Source: a virus
DNA length: 32,115 bases
Direction: 5' to 3' (one strand)
Virus record (IMG/VR): IMGVR_UViG_3300034073_001631
Location: 1-32,115 of that record
Within the stretch, counting starts at the first letter, position 1. Each line of letters starts with the position of its first letter. The notes beneath the pieces are model-generated. The model had not been told where the DNA came from and made no database searches. It worked only from the letters and a program-made list of their open reading frames with translations. A program made the translations under genes and the position numbers. Positions 4,757-26,116 of this stretch are shown here, piece after piece.

Positions 4757-5341
4757 TTATTTGCCGATATATTTTTGTAACAATTTCAACTGATCTGCCG
4801 TCAAATCTTTATAGACCTCTTCTATATAAATATCTGAATCATATACCCAATTTTGTGGATATATGTCAGGTGATGCTGCTCTATAAAGCGGGAAATATTC
4901 TGAATTTTCACATAAATAATTGACAACTCTTTGTGCCCAGAATTCAGCCAAATTTTTCATTTCATCACGAATATATCTTAGATCCTCTAATGACCCAGAT
5001 GATGTGTTGTCTGAAACTGCACGGCCTAACCCGATATTTCTAATTTGAATTGATAGATGTGGCAGTGCCAAATATACAGACCAATATGCCAGTGATTTAG
5101 AGCAAAGATTCACTAATTCAATTTCATATGATGTGAAATAGGGTTGTGAAAAAGTTAGACCTGAATATAATTTATATTCTAACTCGTTGTATAGTGGTGT
5201 GCCTAATAAATCCTGAATATAAATATCCTGTGCCTCGCCAACAAAAGGATATATCTGATCTACATCAATTGATTTGCCAACTGGTGTATAGGTTTTTAGA
5301 TATACATCATCTATGAAAAGAAATGAAAAAGTTGCGGCCAT
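4757..5341 (-). CDS. Head-tail connector-like protein (194 aa)
   Basis: A mostly helical protein with the pattern YPFVGEAQDIYIQDLLGTPLYNEL near residue 30 and NLCSKSLAYWSVYLALPHL near residue 80. This arrangement is typical of the gp6-like or DUF6712-type head-completion proteins of Bacteroidota phages. It directly follows the portal gene and precedes small head genes, the usual connector position. It would bind below the portal and form the neck. No catalytic motif is present. The family label is from memory of the pattern, not from a search. Confidence 0.6.
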   Translation of the reverse strand: MAATFSFLFIDDVYLKTYTPVGKSIDVDQIYPFVGEAQDIYIQDLLGTPLYNELEYKLYSGLTFSQPYFTSYEIELVNLCSKSLAYWSVYLALPHLSIQIRNIGLGRAVSDNTSSGSLEDLRYIRDEMKNLAEFWAQRVVNYLCENSEYFPLYRAASPDIYPQNWVYDSDIYIEEVYKDLTADQLKLLQKYIGK

Positions 5342-9583: not shown

Positions 9584-12500
9584 CTAACCAAAGGTTGCAG
9601 ATCCTTCTAACACTCTAACTCGTTGTTGTGCGTTAGATATATCACTTTCTAAGACATATACTCTTTGACCAGACTGACCACTTTGACTAGTTGAAAAAGG
9701 TGTTGTTGAACCGGCAGATGAAACTGGTGAATTAGTGAAACTGGTGAAACCACCACCTAGACCACCTAACTGATTGCCAGTTGTTGTGCCGGTTGATAGA
9801 CCACCAGATGCAAATCCAGTGTCGGCAACAGCCGTCTGTGGAATTGAACCAGATGAATCAAATTTAGTCTTTTGAATTGCTGCAACCTGAATGCCAGTTG
9901 TTGTTGCAACTAATGCTGATAGAATTCCACCTATAATTGGCGCAACACCACTGGCAACTAATGCTGGATTTGAAAAGGGACCTAAGAAAGCCTGTAAGGC
10001 ACCCTGTGCGCCCGATATAATTGACTGGGCAATTCGATTTTTTTTGTCAGTTTCAAATGCCTTTTTCTTTATTTCTAATTCTTTTTTAGATAGATTTGTT
10101 GCCAAAGCCTCTGTGCTAGCGGCTCGATTTTTGTCTAATTTAAGAATTGCATCATTATATTGTTGCTCGGTTATTAGACCAGCCTCGGCTCTTTTTTTCA
10201 ACAATTCAACCTCTGTGTTAAAAGATGCCGTTAATTCATTTTGTCGATTTTCATTATAGAGTTTCAATTCAATTAATGAATTTTCATCCTCTGTCTGTCT
10301 TAGTTGTTGCAGACTTTGTGCAAAATTAAAGACTAAGTCAAATCCCTGTTGGATTTTTTTGGCAGCCTCGTCAGCCTTTTTTAATTTATATTCTAACAAT
10401 TCATCCTCTGACAACTTTTCGGCATCCTCTTTTAATTTTAGATATTTTCTAACAATGCCTGATTTTTTAGATTCAGCCTCCTCTGTTGCATTAACACTGG
10501 CTTGACTAAGTGCATTTGCTGATGCCAGTGCGCCGGCATTTATTCTGGCCTGACCATCAGAATTTAACTTTTGAATTTTATTGTCAGTTTCTAAATTGAT
10601 TTTGCCAATGGCCTCTAAATATTCAGTCTGATTTATTTTCTTTTGGTCTAATAAGACTTTTTGCTGTGCCAACTCGGTCTGTCTAGTTGAATTGGCAATT
10701 CTAATTTCAGCAGTTGTTTCGGCTGCCAGTGTGTCAATATTCAATTGTCTGATTCTTTCAATTTTTTCAGTTTCAGATATTTCTAATTTATTGATTTTGT
10801 CTAATTCAGCCTTGAAATCTTTTTGTCTTTGCAATTCAGCAAATCCGAATTGCTTTATTATGAATTCCTCGAAATTTACAATTCTTTTAACTCTTTCATT
10901 TTCAATGGTTTGCGTTTCAATTGTTTCTTTTTCTTTTAATAAATCTAATTCTTTTTTTAGATTTGCCTCTCTTTCATTTGATATATCACTGAATGATTTA
11001 ATTTTTTCACCTGTTGTTTGCAACAATAAAAATCTTTCAACAAAGTTAGTTTCTTTGGCTCTTTTAATTTGCTCTTTTGTGTCATCAATTTCGAATTGAA
11101 TTTCTTGCAATTTCAGAAGCCTTCTTTGGTCACTAGCATTTTGGTCACCAAATGCCGTTTCAGTCTGTAACACCTGATTTATGACACGCAGGTCATTTGC
11201 CTTTTTCAATTCAGCGGCAACTTCCTCGTTAATTAGATTTAGTCTTTTTTGCAAATAAAATCCGTCTAAGGCCAAAAGTGCCTCGTTGAATTCAGAATTT
11301 ATTTTATTTATTTTTTGTGATTTTTCTTTTTGACCTAACACCGATTTATTAATTTCATCAGTCTTAGATTTAACTAATTCAGCAATTCTTTCTTTTTCTT
11401 TCTTTTTTTCAAATTCTAATTCATCTAATTTAGTCTTTTGACCTAGCCTTTCTAAATCCTCTAAATATTTCTTTTCTATGTTGTTTGCCTCGGTTAGTGC
11501 CGATGAAATTGATTGCGTGATTTGTTGATAGGCCTGCTTATATTGTTGTTGTGCTGCCTCTAATTTTCTTTTTCGCTCCTCGGCTGCCTGATCTGCTTTT
11601 TGCTTTTCAACCTCGATTTCTTTCTCACGCTGCTCTGATAGTGTCTTTAATTGGTCATTATATGACTTTAATATTGCTGTCCTTTCATTTGCAATTTTAG
11701 TCAAAAGTGAATTTATATCATCTTTTGTCTTTTTCTTGTCAATATCAGATGCTTGATTTACATATTTCAATTGTGCTTTTAGTAACTCTTGATATGTGCC
11801 AGTTGTGATTTCAACCTGTGCCGTTAGTCTTTCAATTAAGGCAATTTTTTCAGCAGTTGTTAAATTCTTAGTGTTGTTTGCAGTTGCCTGATTTCTAAGT
11901 TTCTCTAACTTTTCTAATTGATTTATTTGATTTCTTTTAGATGATATTTCATCCTGACCTAATTTAGTCACGACCTGCACATATTGTACACCCTGACCGG
12001 CCAATTCATTATATTCGGCTCTAAGTGAAATTAATGAAAATTCATTTTTAAATTTATTTGCTTCTTTTAATATAGAATCAAAGACACCCTCTTGATTTCT
12101 TTGATATTCAACAATATCTTTTTCCTGTGCTTTTATGAAATCTCTATTTGCTGCGTCTAAGGCTGCATTTCTTTTATCAACATCTTTTATTTGTAAAGCA
12201 TTTAGTCTAGCCGTTTCAAAAGCCAATTGTGTTAAAGCCTGTGCTGCATTGTTAGATTGCTCGACCTGCTCTTTTTGTTTCTGAATTAATTCATCTGTTG
12301 TTTCAGTTGTCTTTTCAGTTTCACCGCCAAATAAGACTAACCCGGCAACAACGGCTGATAGGGCAACTGCAATTAACCCGAGTGGATTTGCCGCCAGTGC
12401 TGCCGTGAATGACCTGGTTGCCACGGTGGCCGATGTGGTGGCAACAACATCTGCTTCTGTTGCAACAACTTTTGCCTCGGTGGCCACAACATTTGCCTCG

Positions 12501-23316: not shown

Positions 23317-24498
23317 TTATAGGTCTAATATATCTATATCAAATGTATAATCATTTGATCTGGCGGTCTTTTGTATGTGTGACCACACTGCATATCTAAT
23401 GGCACAAAGTGCGTCATCAAAGAGTTTCACAGGTTGGTCTAATTTCATTTCACCACGCATCTGCCATTTATATTTTCTTAATTCAGTGATGATGTTAGTT
23501 GATTCATAGTGAATTGAAAAGTGAAAAGACTTTATTAAATCTATGCCTTCTTTAACCTCTTTCATTGCTGCCTTTGCATCAAATCCGGCTCGTCTAATTT
23601 CCTCTATGGTCTTAGGCTCTGCTGCATCACACCATATCACATCATCATCTGATATAATATTTAAATTTTTCATTTGACTAATTAAATCTGATGTTGTCAT
23701 AAAAGATTTGTATATGACCTCTTGACACCAGATGTGTCTTTTATTTCTGTTAATTATGACTTTAACTAACGCAGTCGGGTGATTAAATCCGAAATCGAGA
23801 CCCCATATAGTTTCATCATCTGAAAAATCGGATTTAGTTTCATAGGTTTGCCAGTGTGAATATACTAATTCATTATTCTTTGCCGGTAGACCTAAGCCAT
23901 ACATTTGCCACAGGTCATCGTCATATAATTTATAGGATTCAATTTGACTAACAACTGCTGATTCTAAAAATGGGTTGTCTTTATATGTTGAATGAATATA
24001 TTGGCAGTCATCACGCGTCTGATAGTCTAATGACCAGTGAAGGGCATTAGTTGGATTTTGACACATAATTATACGGCCAGTGGTACGCATAAAAATCTGC
24101 TCGGCTGCCTCTTTTTCGATTTCATTTATTTCATCAATAAAGACTATATCGTGTTTCAGACCACGCAATTTCACAGACTGGTCTAGGGATATAAATTGAA
24201 TTAAATTGCCACCAATAGAATATATGTGATTTGTCTTATTGTGGTTTCTTTCATCATAGATTTCATAGTCTTTTAACATCTGAATAAATTCTCTGTATGC
24301 ACCTTTTCTAAGACTGGGAAATGTCTTTCTGGCAATTGTTATAATTAGGCCAGTTTCTTTTAGTGCCTTTATTAAAATCCACTGCATTGCTGAATATGTC
24401 TTTGTGGATCTAGACCCGCCAACTGACAGGATGAAACGCCTATCTGTCTTTAACATAATATCTAAGACACGGCTGCCCTTTATTTGCAATTTATTCAT
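23317..24498 (-). CDS. terL: Terminase large subunit (393 aa)
   Basis: The DNA-packaging motor. The ATPase domain has a Walker A-type loop, VGGSRSTKT (residues 26-34), and a Walker B, DIVFIDEINE (residues 117-126, Asp122/Glu123). The nuclease domain begins with IWGLDFGFNH (Asp235), continues with VIWCDAAEP (Asp291) and ends at KLFDDALCAIRYA (Asp361/Asp362), matching the three-acid RNase H-like site of Terminase_3 (PBSX/SPP1-type). At 393 residues it is slightly short for the family but has all key residues. Its ATG overlaps the TerS stop by four bases (ATGA), indicating coupled translation. The preceding HNH gene suggests cos-type cutting. Confidence 0.92.
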   Translation of the reverse strand: MNKLQIKGSRVLDIMLKTDRRFILSVGGSRSTKTYSAMQWILIKALKETGLIITIARKTFPSLRKGAYREFIQMLKDYEIYDERNHNKTNHIYSIGGNLIQFISLDQSVKLRGLKHDIVFIDEINEIEKEAAEQIFMRTTGRIIMCQNPTNALHWSLDYQTRDDCQYIHSTYKDNPFLESAVVSQIESYKLYDDDLWQMYGLGLPAKNNELVYSHWQTYETKSDFSDDETIWGLDFGFNHPTALVKVIINRNKRHIWCQEVIYKSFMTTSDLISQMKNLNIISDDDVIWCDAAEPKTIEEIRRAGFDAKAAMKEVKEGIDLIKSFHFSIHYESTNIITELRKYKWQMRGEMKLDQPVKLFDDALCAIRYAVWSHIQKTARSNDYTFDIDILDL

Positions 24499-24860
24499 AT
24501 GTCATCTAAATTAAAATCATCACGGATGATTCTAACCTCGACCTCTGATATGCTTTGGCCTTTTGATGTGATGTCTAATGAATCTGTGTAACCTCTTTCT
24601 TTGGCTTTGAAACGCAAATAAAAATGAATTGACTTTTCTGATCCATTTTCAATTGCTTTGAATAATTTATTTTCAACAAAGTCTATCACGGTTTCATTTA
24701 TATCATCGACTTTTGATTTGAAATCTGGATCCTCTTTAACCCATTTGTGAAAAGTTTCACGAGCAATATTTGCTTCTTTGCAGGCGTGTGTGATGATGCC
24801 TCGGTGTCTTTCTAGGCACTCTAAGACTTTATTTTTTTTTATTATGGTGCTGTCACGCAT
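24495..24860 (-). CDS. terS: Terminase small subunit (121 aa)
   Basis: Recognises the packaging site and loads TerL. Residues 10-45 form a helix-turn-helix (VLECLERHRGIITHACKEAN, IARETFHKWVKEDPDF), typical of small terminases of the DUF1804/Terminase_2-like kind. A helical oligomerisation region follows (VDDINETVIDFVENKLFKAI, then EKSIHFYLRFKAKERG). The acidic C-terminus (IIRDDFNLDDI) would contact TerL. The gene overlaps TerL by four bases and follows the HNH gene. The gene-free region at 25343-25837 lies one gene upstream and is the expected place for a cos or pac site. A variant of the GACATA motif lies at 24886-24881. Confidence 0.85.
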   Translation of the reverse strand: MRDSTIIKKNKVLECLERHRGIITHACKEANIARETFHKWVKEDPDFKSKVDDINETVIDFVENKLFKAIENGSEKSIHFYLRFKAKERGYTDSLDITSKGQSISEVEVRIIRDDFNLDDI

Positions 24861-24907: not shown

Positions 24908-25342
24908 CTAATTTCTTTTTGACAACACCTTAGTTATGCGTTTCATAAATCCTTTATATTCACAAATTTTAATCTTTTTTTGTGTTTCATAAAAGTCTAA
25001 TGCTTCTTTTTCACTTTCAAATCCGAAATATTGACTTTTTATTTTAACAAAGAATTTATTTGATTCAATTCTGATCCATTTTCTTTTTTTAGGTTTGGCC
25101 TTTTTTTTCTTTTTAGGTTGTGTTTCTTTTCTTTTGTGGTGATTTTCATGACAAATTTTACACAACACCTCTAAATCAGATAATTTTTCGTTAAATATAT
25201 TTTCATAGGTTTTATGATGCACCTGAATATTAGTTATAGATTGACATCTTTCGCATACTTTGCCTCTTTCGGCAAACAATTGTTGTCTTTTCTTTTGCCA
25301 TTCATCACTTTGCAGATAGTCTTTATATTTTTGATTCATCAT
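24908..25342 (-). CDS. HNH endonuclease of packaging module (144 aa)
   Basis: Carries a complete HNH motif: Cys30-Glu-Arg-Cys33, His42-His43 (IQVHHKTYENIFNEKLSDLE), Cys61-Lys-Ile-Cys64 and His68-His69. The four cysteines bind structural zinc. The N-terminus (KYKDYLQSDEWQKKRQQLFA) is the usual lead-in. A Lys-rich linker (ETQPKKKKKAKPKKRK) follows, then a short basic C-terminal domain. HNH proteins next to TerS and TerL in HK97-type phages act with the terminase in cos cleavage, so that role is likely here. The promoter just upstream places the transcription start almost on the first ATG (25342 or 25339), so the message may be leaderless. Confidence 0.85.
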   Translation of the reverse strand: MMNQKYKDYLQSDEWQKKRQQLFAERGKVCERCQSITNIQVHHKTYENIFNEKLSDLEVLCKICHENHHKRKETQPKKKKKAKPKKRKWIRIESNKFFVKIKSQYFGFESEKEALDFYETQKKIKICEYKGFMKRITKVLSKRN

Positions 25343-25347
25343 TTTGA

Positions 25348-25378
25348 CAAATTTAATAAATTTTTTATGAAAGACAAA
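25348..25378 (-). promoter_or_regulatory. Bacteroidota-type promoter before HNH-terminase operon
   Basis: On the minus strand, TTTG (25378-25375), a 19-nt spacer and TAAATTTG (25355-25348). This matches the Bacteroidota consensus TTTG-N19-TAnnTTTG exactly. Transcription would start around 25344-25341, next to or on the first ATG of the HNH gene, implying a leaderless or nearly leaderless late transcript. Confidence 0.7.
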
Positions 25379-25380
25379 AC

Positions 25381-25410
25381 TTTTGATATATAAATTATAT
25401 AAATTTTAAT
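25381..25410. other. AT-only stretch next to iteron-like repeats
   Basis: Thirty bases with one G and no C (TTTTGATATATAAATTATAT then AAATTTTAAT). It sits between the late promoter and the AAAGGCAA repeats. Such easily melted DNA beside iterons is typical of replication origins; it could also hold plus-strand promoter elements. It contains no coding sequence. Confidence 0.5.
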
Positions 25411-25412
25411 TC

Positions 25413-25476
25413 AAAGGCAATCAAAGGCAATTTCTGGCATAAATTAAAGGCAAATCAGTTGACAAATCATAGGCAA
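25413..25476 (+). repeat. Four iteron-like AWAGGCAA repeats
   Basis: The octamer AAAGGCAA occurs at 25413-25420, 25423-25430 and 25446-25453, and ATAGGCAA at 25469-25476, all in the same orientation, with start-to-start spacing of 10, 23 and 23 bp. The 23-bp spacing is close to two helical turns, so bound proteins would lie on one face. Candidate roles: terminase small-subunit binding sites of a cos region, replication iterons, or operators of the weak Cro/CI-like protein at 25838. Confidence 0.6.
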
Positions 25477-25759
25477 TCGACCTTATAGTCTGACGCACAA
25501 ATGGCACCAGGGACTATATTGTAACGCCCCACTGGGAGGATATATGACATAGGGCAGCAATGGTGTTAATACCAGACGAGTTGTGAGCATATAGGTGACT
25601 TAGAAATCATCTTAAAGTAGGTCTGGCGACTATATTGACTAAGTGATATAGTTAAAATCCGATGGGGCTAATTGGTCGACGGCAAGCAATTGACGGCATT
25701 TATGTTAAACAGAGGATTTTAGATGACGGCCTAAGGATGGTCGTGTCTAAAATCCTCTG
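25435..25759 (+). ncRNA. Candidate large structured non-coding RNA
   Basis: Gene-free, with a visibly higher GC content than its surroundings. Hand folding of the plus strand gives nested helices: P1 25435-25444 with 25698-25707 (10 bp, two G-U); P2 25477-25482 with 25674-25679; P3 25484-25490 with 25512-25518; P4 25526-25531 with 25663-25668; P5 25572-25577 with 25621-25626; P6 25628-25635 with 25646-25653 (one G-U). P7 is a 14-bp perfect stem (25710-25723 with 25746-25759) capped by a 6-bp stem. The G-U pairs become A-C mismatches on the minus strand, favouring a plus-strand RNA. The short long-range helices could be chance; P7 is solid. No known class was recognised. A packaging-site DNA structure is the alternative. 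Confidence 0.5.
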
Positions 25760-25810
25760 AAACTTTTAATCTCTGGCAAACATTTTGGATATATCAGATC
25801 GGTCTAGATG

Positions 25811-25840
25811 TGATTTCACACACCAAAAGTGTGAAATTCA
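25811..25840. other. Inverted repeat at end of 92-aa gene
   Basis: GATTTCACAC and GTGTGAAATTC form a strong hairpin (9 bp plus bulge) with a short AC-rich loop, covering the stop codon of the gene at 25838. No T-run follows on either strand, so it is not a standard terminator. It could be an operator or an RNA-stabilising 3' hairpin. Confidence 0.5.
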
Positions 25841-26116
25841 CAAATAAATTCGATTCCAGAGGTCTTCATATTCAACTTTGAATGCCTTTGCCATAGTCGT
25901 TAAAAGGGGCTCTGATATGTGAAACTGACCATTAGATTGCAGAAATCCTTTTAATTTGCCAATATAATATGGTGAAATCCAACCCTCTTTATACATCACT
26001 AGACCAGATTTAATGACAAATGGTGGATATAAATCACACCTGATGATTTTTAGATGTGATTTAGAAATTCTAATTAGACACACATAGTGCCAATTTTTCT
26101 TTTTCTTTTTATTCAT
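25838..26116 (-). CDS. Small basic protein, weakly Cro/CI-like (92 aa)
   Basis: Not firmly recognised. It begins with a Lys run (NKKKKKNWHY). The second half (ISPYYIGKLKGFLQSNGQFH, ISEPLLTTMAKAFKVEYEDL) has the shape of the latter part of an XRE/Cro-type helix-turn-helix domain: a recognition-like segment, then a helix with a PLLTTMAKAFKV pattern like the usual LxxIAxAL.V. The first helices are not obvious, so the match may be false. It is the last gene before the non-coding control region, a fitting place for a regulator binding there. A hairpin overlaps its stop codon, and a weak terminator precedes it. Confidence 0.5.
   Translation of the reverse strand: MNKKKKKNWHYVCLIRISKSHLKIIRCDLYPPFVIKSGLVMYKEGWISPYYIGKLKGFLQSNGQFHISEPLLTTMAKAFKVEYEDLWNRIYL

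Follow-up and report, generated by a model that had tools for sequence, protein, structure and literature searches.

Phages and prophages carry ornate RNAs, among them ROOL and GOLLD, whose function is described as not known in PMC12286853; the same account reports pseudoknots in ROOL, describes a ROOL of 659 nt, puts many GOLLD RNAs above 800 nt and often places these RNAs near tRNA islands. Small RNA anti-CRISPRs (Racrs) are presented in PMC10651486 as phage-encoded RNAs directed against host defence. The Rfam catalogue also holds RF02932 (Betaproteobacteria-1), for which no paper bearing the name or accession was found in the literature that we searched. Here we describe a locus in a linear IMG/VR virus record of 32,115 bp, the whole of which was analysed and is referred to below as the window. 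The plus strand of positions ~25424-25769 almost certainly encodes a structured RNA; this extent reflects conservation with a diverged homologue, L214, and its ends are estimated from an alignment of the two (A5).

Genomic setting and folding of the RNA region

No apparent gene lies between 25343 and 25837. To the left, on the minus strand, are an HNH gene (24908-25342, with its start at 25342) and the terminase genes (24495-24860 and 23317-24498); to the right are small minus-strand ORFs, including 25838-26116. The closest named TerL relatives are those of Bacteroides phages, at ~33% identity, and no tRNA genes were found in the window. Two claims of the sequence-only reading, that about 325 bases (25435-25759) are free of genes and that their plus strand forms a structured RNA, both stand. 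No plus-strand ORF of at least 50 aa lies inside this interval, for which reason a protein-coding reading was dropped, and its G+C content (42%) is higher than the 35% of the window. The plus strand folds at -101.2 kcal/mol, compared with -77.3 ± 4.5 kcal/mol in 100 dinucleotide shuffles, none of which folded as well (z = -5.28). The fold of the minus strand is weaker (z = -3.63), which favors the plus strand, as do G-U pairs in helices H1 and H3c that are retained in the window and in both homologues described below.

An exchanged RNA block and its close relatives

Using the exact arms of the 3' hairpin as the query, we retrieved L014, L015 and L016. A 506-bp block (25336-25841, plus strand), which spans the gap from the start of the HNH gene to the stop of ORF 25838-26116, is 97.8% identical in phage L014/L015, while the other genes are far more diverged; the window and L015 differ over this block at 10 mismatched positions and 1 gap, and the differences include an A-U to G-C double change in helix H3c. 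L214 was reached through an alignment of the TerL proteins of these two, used in a viral scan, and its RNA is ~69% identical to that of the window (blastn E 2e-23). TerL identity is 48% between the window and L015 and 88% between L015 and L214. The RNA tree conflicts with the terminase tree, and the RNA block has therefore moved between lineages; comparison of these loci shows horizontal exchange of the block between phages as a cassette.

Other queries returned little. Among 28 loci of TerL relatives (L213-L240), searched with blastn and with R2, a model of the window lineage, the RNA was found only in L214. The window TerL alone retrieved one near-identical contig, which does not carry the RNA; the HNH protein retrieved only HNH relatives, and the neighboring ORF 25838-26116 none. 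Direct similarity searches of the window RNA against phages and plasmids gave short, chance-like matches or none. A 25-mer from loop 2 had no match in a genome scan, and a looser pattern matched one Sphingobium contig, with no RF02932 match there.

Several short elements lie around the RNA. Three AGGCAAT direct repeats (window 25408-25478) reach into its 5' side, and one of them is retained in L214. At the end of the exchanged block, a 9-bp inverted repeat, ATTTCACAC/GTGTGAAAT (window 25813-25837), may be a terminator. On the minus strand at 25348-25378, TTTG is followed after 19 nt by TAnnTTTG, the form of a Bacteroidota-type promoter; this promoter-like sequence faces the HNH-terminase genes and ends nearly at the HNH start codon.

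The genes next to the RNA bear on whether it is a cis-acting, riboswitch-like leader of a downstream gene. L015 and L214 share a ParB gene (48% identity) and a 102-aa gene (66%) that flank the RNA, and in each of them a gene on the same strand follows it, as such a leader would require. That gene is ParB in L214 and the 102-aa gene in L015, and the RNA lies in opposite orientations relative to these two neighbors; the downstream partner differs between lineages while the RNA is kept. A leader role also misfits the window, where the next downstream gene is on the opposite strand, and we regard this explanation as scarcely credible.

A conserved pseudoknotted core

We lined up the helix strands of three sequences, those of the window, L015 and L214, at stated positions; the strand pairs were chosen by hand, so the count that follows is not a blind one. 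Over eight helices, 17 of 45 pairs are altered on both sides in L214 and still pair, 2 are altered on one side and 1 is a non-pair, the outermost U.U of H1, which is unpaired in the window, L015 and L214 alike. Covariation within the window lineage comes from only two independent lineages. The sequence-only reading had held that conserved DNA without compensatory changes would speak against an RNA; both-side changes occur in 7 of the 8 compared helices, in L214 or L015, and the RNA is thus not refuted on that ground.

All of the helices lie on the plus strand. Hairpin 1 (H1; 25484-25518, stem 25484-25491/25511-25518) has one pair that goes from C-G to U-A in L214 (1/9 pairs changed on both sides), and its loop carries GACGC...GGCACCAG; the same hairpin is present in the RF02932 alignment. 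The end of loop 1 (CCAG, 25507-25510) pairs with the start of loop 2 (CUGG, 25532-25535) in a kissing helix, K1 (25507-25535), which is invariant in the window lineage (0/4) and of which 3/4 pairs covary among 40 RF02932 RNAs. Hairpin 2 (H2; 25526-25555, stem 25526-25529/25552-25555) likewise has a single C-G pair that is U-A in L214 (1/4). A second pseudoknot, K2 (25542-25592), joins AUAUG (25542-25546) to CAUAU (25588-25592); these strands read AUGGA and UCCAU in L214, with both sides changed in 3/5 pairs. Helix H3a (25557-25584) pairs GCAA (25557-25560) with UUGU (25581-25584), the counterparts in L214 being GCGG/CCGC (double changes in 2/4 pairs). Within its loop, CCAGAC (25572-25577) pairs with GUCUGG (25621-25626) to form H3b (25572-25626), replaced by UCCUUG/CAAGGA in L214 (5/6). 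The inserted hairpin H3c (25593-25612; AGGUGA/UCAUCU) has its A-U to G-C double change in both L015 and L214 (1/6), and hairpin H4 (25629-25652) pairs ACUAUAU (25629-25635) with AUAUAGU (25646-25652), which become GCCAAUA/UAUUGGU (4/7). The long 3' hairpin H6 (25710-25759) differs in length between lineages, one pair being deleted on both sides in L214, and was left out of the 45-pair count; it is a possible terminator or processing signal. The 5' strand of H2 (25526-25530) has an alternative distal partner near 25664-25668; in the comparison over 25658-25668, 3 pairs are double-changed and 3 broken. Pairing with either partner is retained in L214, and a conformational switch of this strand between the two is possible.

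These comparisons support a conserved pseudoknotted core: two hairpins kiss through their loops, the loop of a third pairs with sequence farther downstream, and a second helix joins loop to loop. When the minimum-energy fold is mapped onto alignment A5, H1 holds 8/8 pairs, H3c holds 6/6 and the 3' hairpin 17/20 comparable pairs, so that the comparison backs the hairpins at 25484-25518 and 25593-25612 and the 3' hairpin in addition to the pseudoknotted core. The terminal hairpin of 14 + 6 bp that the sequence-only reading had drawn was recovered, at 25710-25759. The rest of that drawing, a purely nested multibranch arrangement with a closing helix, fared less well, since it differs from the conserved architecture, whose pseudoknotted core is invisible to nested folding. 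Its 10-bp closing helix (25435-25444/25698-25707) has 5/10 pairs broken in L214 and 1 in L015, with zero compensatory changes; the nested multibranch interior of the minimum-energy fold does as poorly over much of its extent, the helices 25541-25552/25639-25650 and 25579-25592/25617-25631 each having 6 broken pairs in L214.

The helix comparison also bears on a reading of the region as a DNA element, whether an origin, a packaging or recombination site or a recombination hot spot, with the fold a by-product of inverted repeats. The entire 506-bp block, spacers included, is near-identical in another phage, contig L016/L017 breaks within it, and the RNA lies no more than a few kb from terminase genes in the window, L015 and L214, all of which would suit such an element. 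Pairing is nevertheless kept through double changes, including those in K2 and H3b, which are not nested and which a DNA cruciform would not form, and the G-U pairs of H1 and H3c that are kept in all three sequences favor the plus strand. We therefore hold a DNA element to be very improbable.

Relationship to RF02932

Group I and group II introns, HEARO, riboswitches, phage pRNA and other Rfam classes were rejected, there being no gathering-level match in the window. The Rfam models run on the window included GOLLD and ROOL, which match the RNA region neither at gathering level nor in a permissive scan of 4227 families. The sole match to the region with E below 0.5 in that scan is RF02932, at 25482-25581 (26.2 bits, E 0.006), and L015 matches the same family with 26.8 bits (E 0.004); both scores lie below the gathering score of 49.4. 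The earlier statement that the RNA matches no recognized class thus holds in so far as it is neither GOLLD nor ROOL and no family reaches its gathering score, and gives way before the sub-threshold match to RF02932 and the architecture shared with it. In RF02932 RNAs one hairpin follows another, the two loops being 19-20 nt long and carrying the conserved letters ..CAG and CUG.G.G..UGA.A. The same arrangement is found in the window, where CCAG, CUGG and UGA of these loops are all present.

RF02932 members came from 4 of the 398 Pseudomonadota genomes that we drew, 3 of them scoring above the cut-off, and from 39/299 genomes of the G324 family, where 37 did so. The degenerate genomic matches L024, L026, L114 and L115 were excluded from alignment A2 and from the sensitivity count given below, and near-duplicates from A2. 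Column covariation in an alignment of 40 RF02932 RNAs revealed K1, hairpin 3a and K2 beyond the helices of the Rfam model. K2 is paired in 91.8% of cells, with both-side changes in 4/4 pairs; for the extended structure, 91.9% of cells pair, compared with 33-44% when the partners are slid, and both-side changes are found in 356 cells against a shuffle mean of 117. K2 and hairpin 3a were derived from RF02932 first and then sought and found in the window, where they covary in L214; the window thus has both K1, which is invariant, and K2, with its 3 double changes.

Covariance-type cross-matches were weaker. R1, a model of RF02932 members, misses the window with default filters and scores 7.2 bits (E 2.9) with filters off, less than a chance match at another place in the window. 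R3, built on hairpins 1 and 2 of the 40 members, gives the window 10.8 bits (E 0.32) and leaves L214 unmatched; in 58.9 kb it finds nothing up to E 10 other than the window and L015. R2 finds the window and L214, and in 73 loci it gives no significant match to an RF02932-type RNA. A six-helix descriptor, whose offset ranges were set after the window had been seen and which L214 fails, matches once in the window (64 kb, both strands), at 25485, and in 0/5000 shuffles of the region. Its sensitivity is 30/55 genomic and 47/80 viral loci; shuffled window sequence (6.4 Mb) gives 41 false matches, and a set of 40 decoy loci (377 kb, both strands) gives 1. The two loop motifs of the window matched 34 stretches in an IMG/VR scan, including the known relatives and L049, an RF02932 RNA above the cut-off (76.9 bits); the remaining stretches appear by eye to be coding or unrelated.

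Homology with RF02932 rests on architecture, because the scores stay below the membership cut-off and our own models fall short of significance. This leaves some room for a genuine phage RNA of other descent, whose plan has come to resemble that of RF02932 by convergence or chance, a reading that the lack of a significant cross-match from R1, R2 or R3, the sub-gathering score and the choice of descriptor ranges with the window in view would favor. It sits poorly with the E value of 0.006 that Rfam's own model gives over 4227 families, with a descriptor match in the right place once in 64 kb and in none of 5000 shuffles, and with K2, which RF02932 had led us to expect and which covariation in the window lineage then bore out; we judge it improbable. 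Shared descent of the window RNA and RF02932 is well favored, and we call it likely, not proven. The best explanation places the window RNA in a broad class, as an AT-rich lineage that has diverged within it; RF02932 is the one part of this class that we found catalogued.

RF02932-type RNAs in phages

A loop-2 pattern matched 94 viral stretches in IMG/VR, from which 80 loci were listed. In a search of 81 sources (the window, L049 and 79 new loci) R1 matched 72, the unmatched ones being the window and 8 coding-looking loci. RF02932-type RNAs are therefore common in phage contigs (72/80 viral loci, L117-L195 and L049), and the name that Rfam gives them appears much too narrow. K2 can pair in 41/41 non-redundant phage RNAs, at an offset of 24-26, and its variable pair is C-G in 12 of these, G-C in 11, U-A in 9, A-U in 8 and G-U in 1. 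Two carriers are annotated, Acidovorax phage AP1 and MW202545; in AP1 the RNA lies in an unannotated gap (11822-12114) following the annotated primase.

The recurrent neighbors of the RNA in the 72 viral loci, co-oriented with it, are primase-like (26), helicase (22) and ParB-like (16) genes upstream and exonuclease-like (28) and RecT (24) genes downstream; Pfam searches of representatives passed cut-offs for Toprim, ResIII and RecT and failed for YqaJ. A pre-primer or origin-proximal RNA that, like ColE1 RNA II, helps to start phage DNA synthesis would fit this placement in a replication and recombination module on the same strand (primase-like upstream in 26/72), as it would the AP1 copy in the gap after primase and the copies in L015 and L214, which adjoin a ParB gene. 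Against such a role, the RNA is inverted between L015 and L214 relative to the same two neighbors, the window copy lies between the HNH gene and a small ORF, and some of the bacterial neighborhoods that we scanned have no phage replication genes. A replication-linked RNA is on balance unlikely, and is still the alternative role to which we give most weight.

Bacterial copies among defence genes

The bacterial copies of RF02932 (L243-L261, L059, L061) sit among anti-phage defence genes. Around 19 of them (107 proteins), 103 PADLOC models match at E ≤1e-20, compared with 30, mostly of one HerA-SIR2 system, in 19 other regions of the same contigs (106 proteins); these figures count models, which are redundant, and not loci. 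The systems named include Zorya, Septu, Gabija, Avs2, Shedu, Qat, Hhe-like and others. Comparison thus shows RF02932-type RNAs distributed over both phages and defence islands.

TniB matches 6 proteins and TniQ 4 near the bacterial copies, and neither is among the 25 families listed for the controls. TniB and TniQ homologues precede the RNA in 5/19 regions (L250, L251, L252, L256, L258), where it lies near position 5000 on the minus strand, opposite in strand to TniQ and 0.8-1.5 kb after it. The RNA may be a target site of a TniB-TniQ element or a part of that element. Another shared gene comes first in 4 of the 5 regions, and one of them has a weak Mu-transposase match. No protein common to all bacterial copies was found within 1.5 kb. 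In many bacterial copies (L063-L090) the first hairpins are preceded at a short distance by a TATAC(A/T) box, read by eye, which would be expected of a separately transcribed RNA.

A proposed role in phage-host conflict

With the leader and DNA-site roles failing, a trans-acting or a replication RNA is left. The dispersal of the RNA, its exchange as a cassette and the presence of bacterial copies in defence islands favor a trans role in phage-host conflict, to which we give the edge over a replication role. That the window RNA is, whatever its exact role, a stand-alone, cassette-exchanged, trans-acting pseudoknotted phage RNA of the RF02932 class is a proposition that we consider evenly poised; that it serves in cell takeover or counter-defence is a more tentative suggestion, guessed from the neighborhoods of its relatives. 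We infer that the window RNA is transcribed, that it binds protein and acts in trans, and that this action is one of takeover or counter-defence. The core is compact: hairpins 1 and 2 kiss loop to loop, the remainder of loop 2 pairs with the strand past hairpin 3, and the loop of the latter pairs farther downstream. In the mechanism that we propose, this rigid core would present loop 1 and the UGA-containing loop 2 to a host or phage protein, and the RNA would act in trans, most likely in cell takeover or against host defence.

A bolder and rather doubtful extension is that RF02932 is the visible part of a much larger and widespread class: compact, pseudoknotted effector RNAs that phages exchange as cassettes, that disarm or redirect a host protein, and that bacteria have co-opted into defence islands and Tn7-like TniB-TniQ elements. 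The bacterial copies would then work for the other party, or act as a guide or a mark for the TniB-TniQ element, and the window would hold a branch of the class in a Bacteroidota-type phage.

Although filed under a host-group name, this family seems to be an RNA that is common in phages and has two loop-loop pseudoknots. Its mixed distribution over phages and defence islands makes a role in phage-host conflict a concrete hypothesis, the covariation model renders the structure directly testable, and the occurrence of an RF02932-type RNA in a named isolate, Acidovorax phage AP1, opens it to deletion and probing.

Comparison with known RNAs

The window RNA resembles GOLLD and ROOL in kind, as an ornate phage non-coding RNA. 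These are larger and often lie by tRNA islands, as described in PMC12286853, whereas the window is without tRNA genes. Racrs are mimics of CRISPR repeats. RF02932 is the closest of the known systems, although Rfam's model of it spans just 120 positions. The two RNAs have hairpin 1, hairpin 2 and helix 3b in common, along with three features that lie outside the Rfam model, namely the kissing loops, K2 and helix 3a; the loop letters GGCACCAG and CUGGGAGG of the window are as in the RF02932 member L049. The window RNA differs from RF02932 in stems that are nearly all different in sequence, in being AT-rich, in its other 3' half and in the extra hairpin H3c, which is absent from RF02932.
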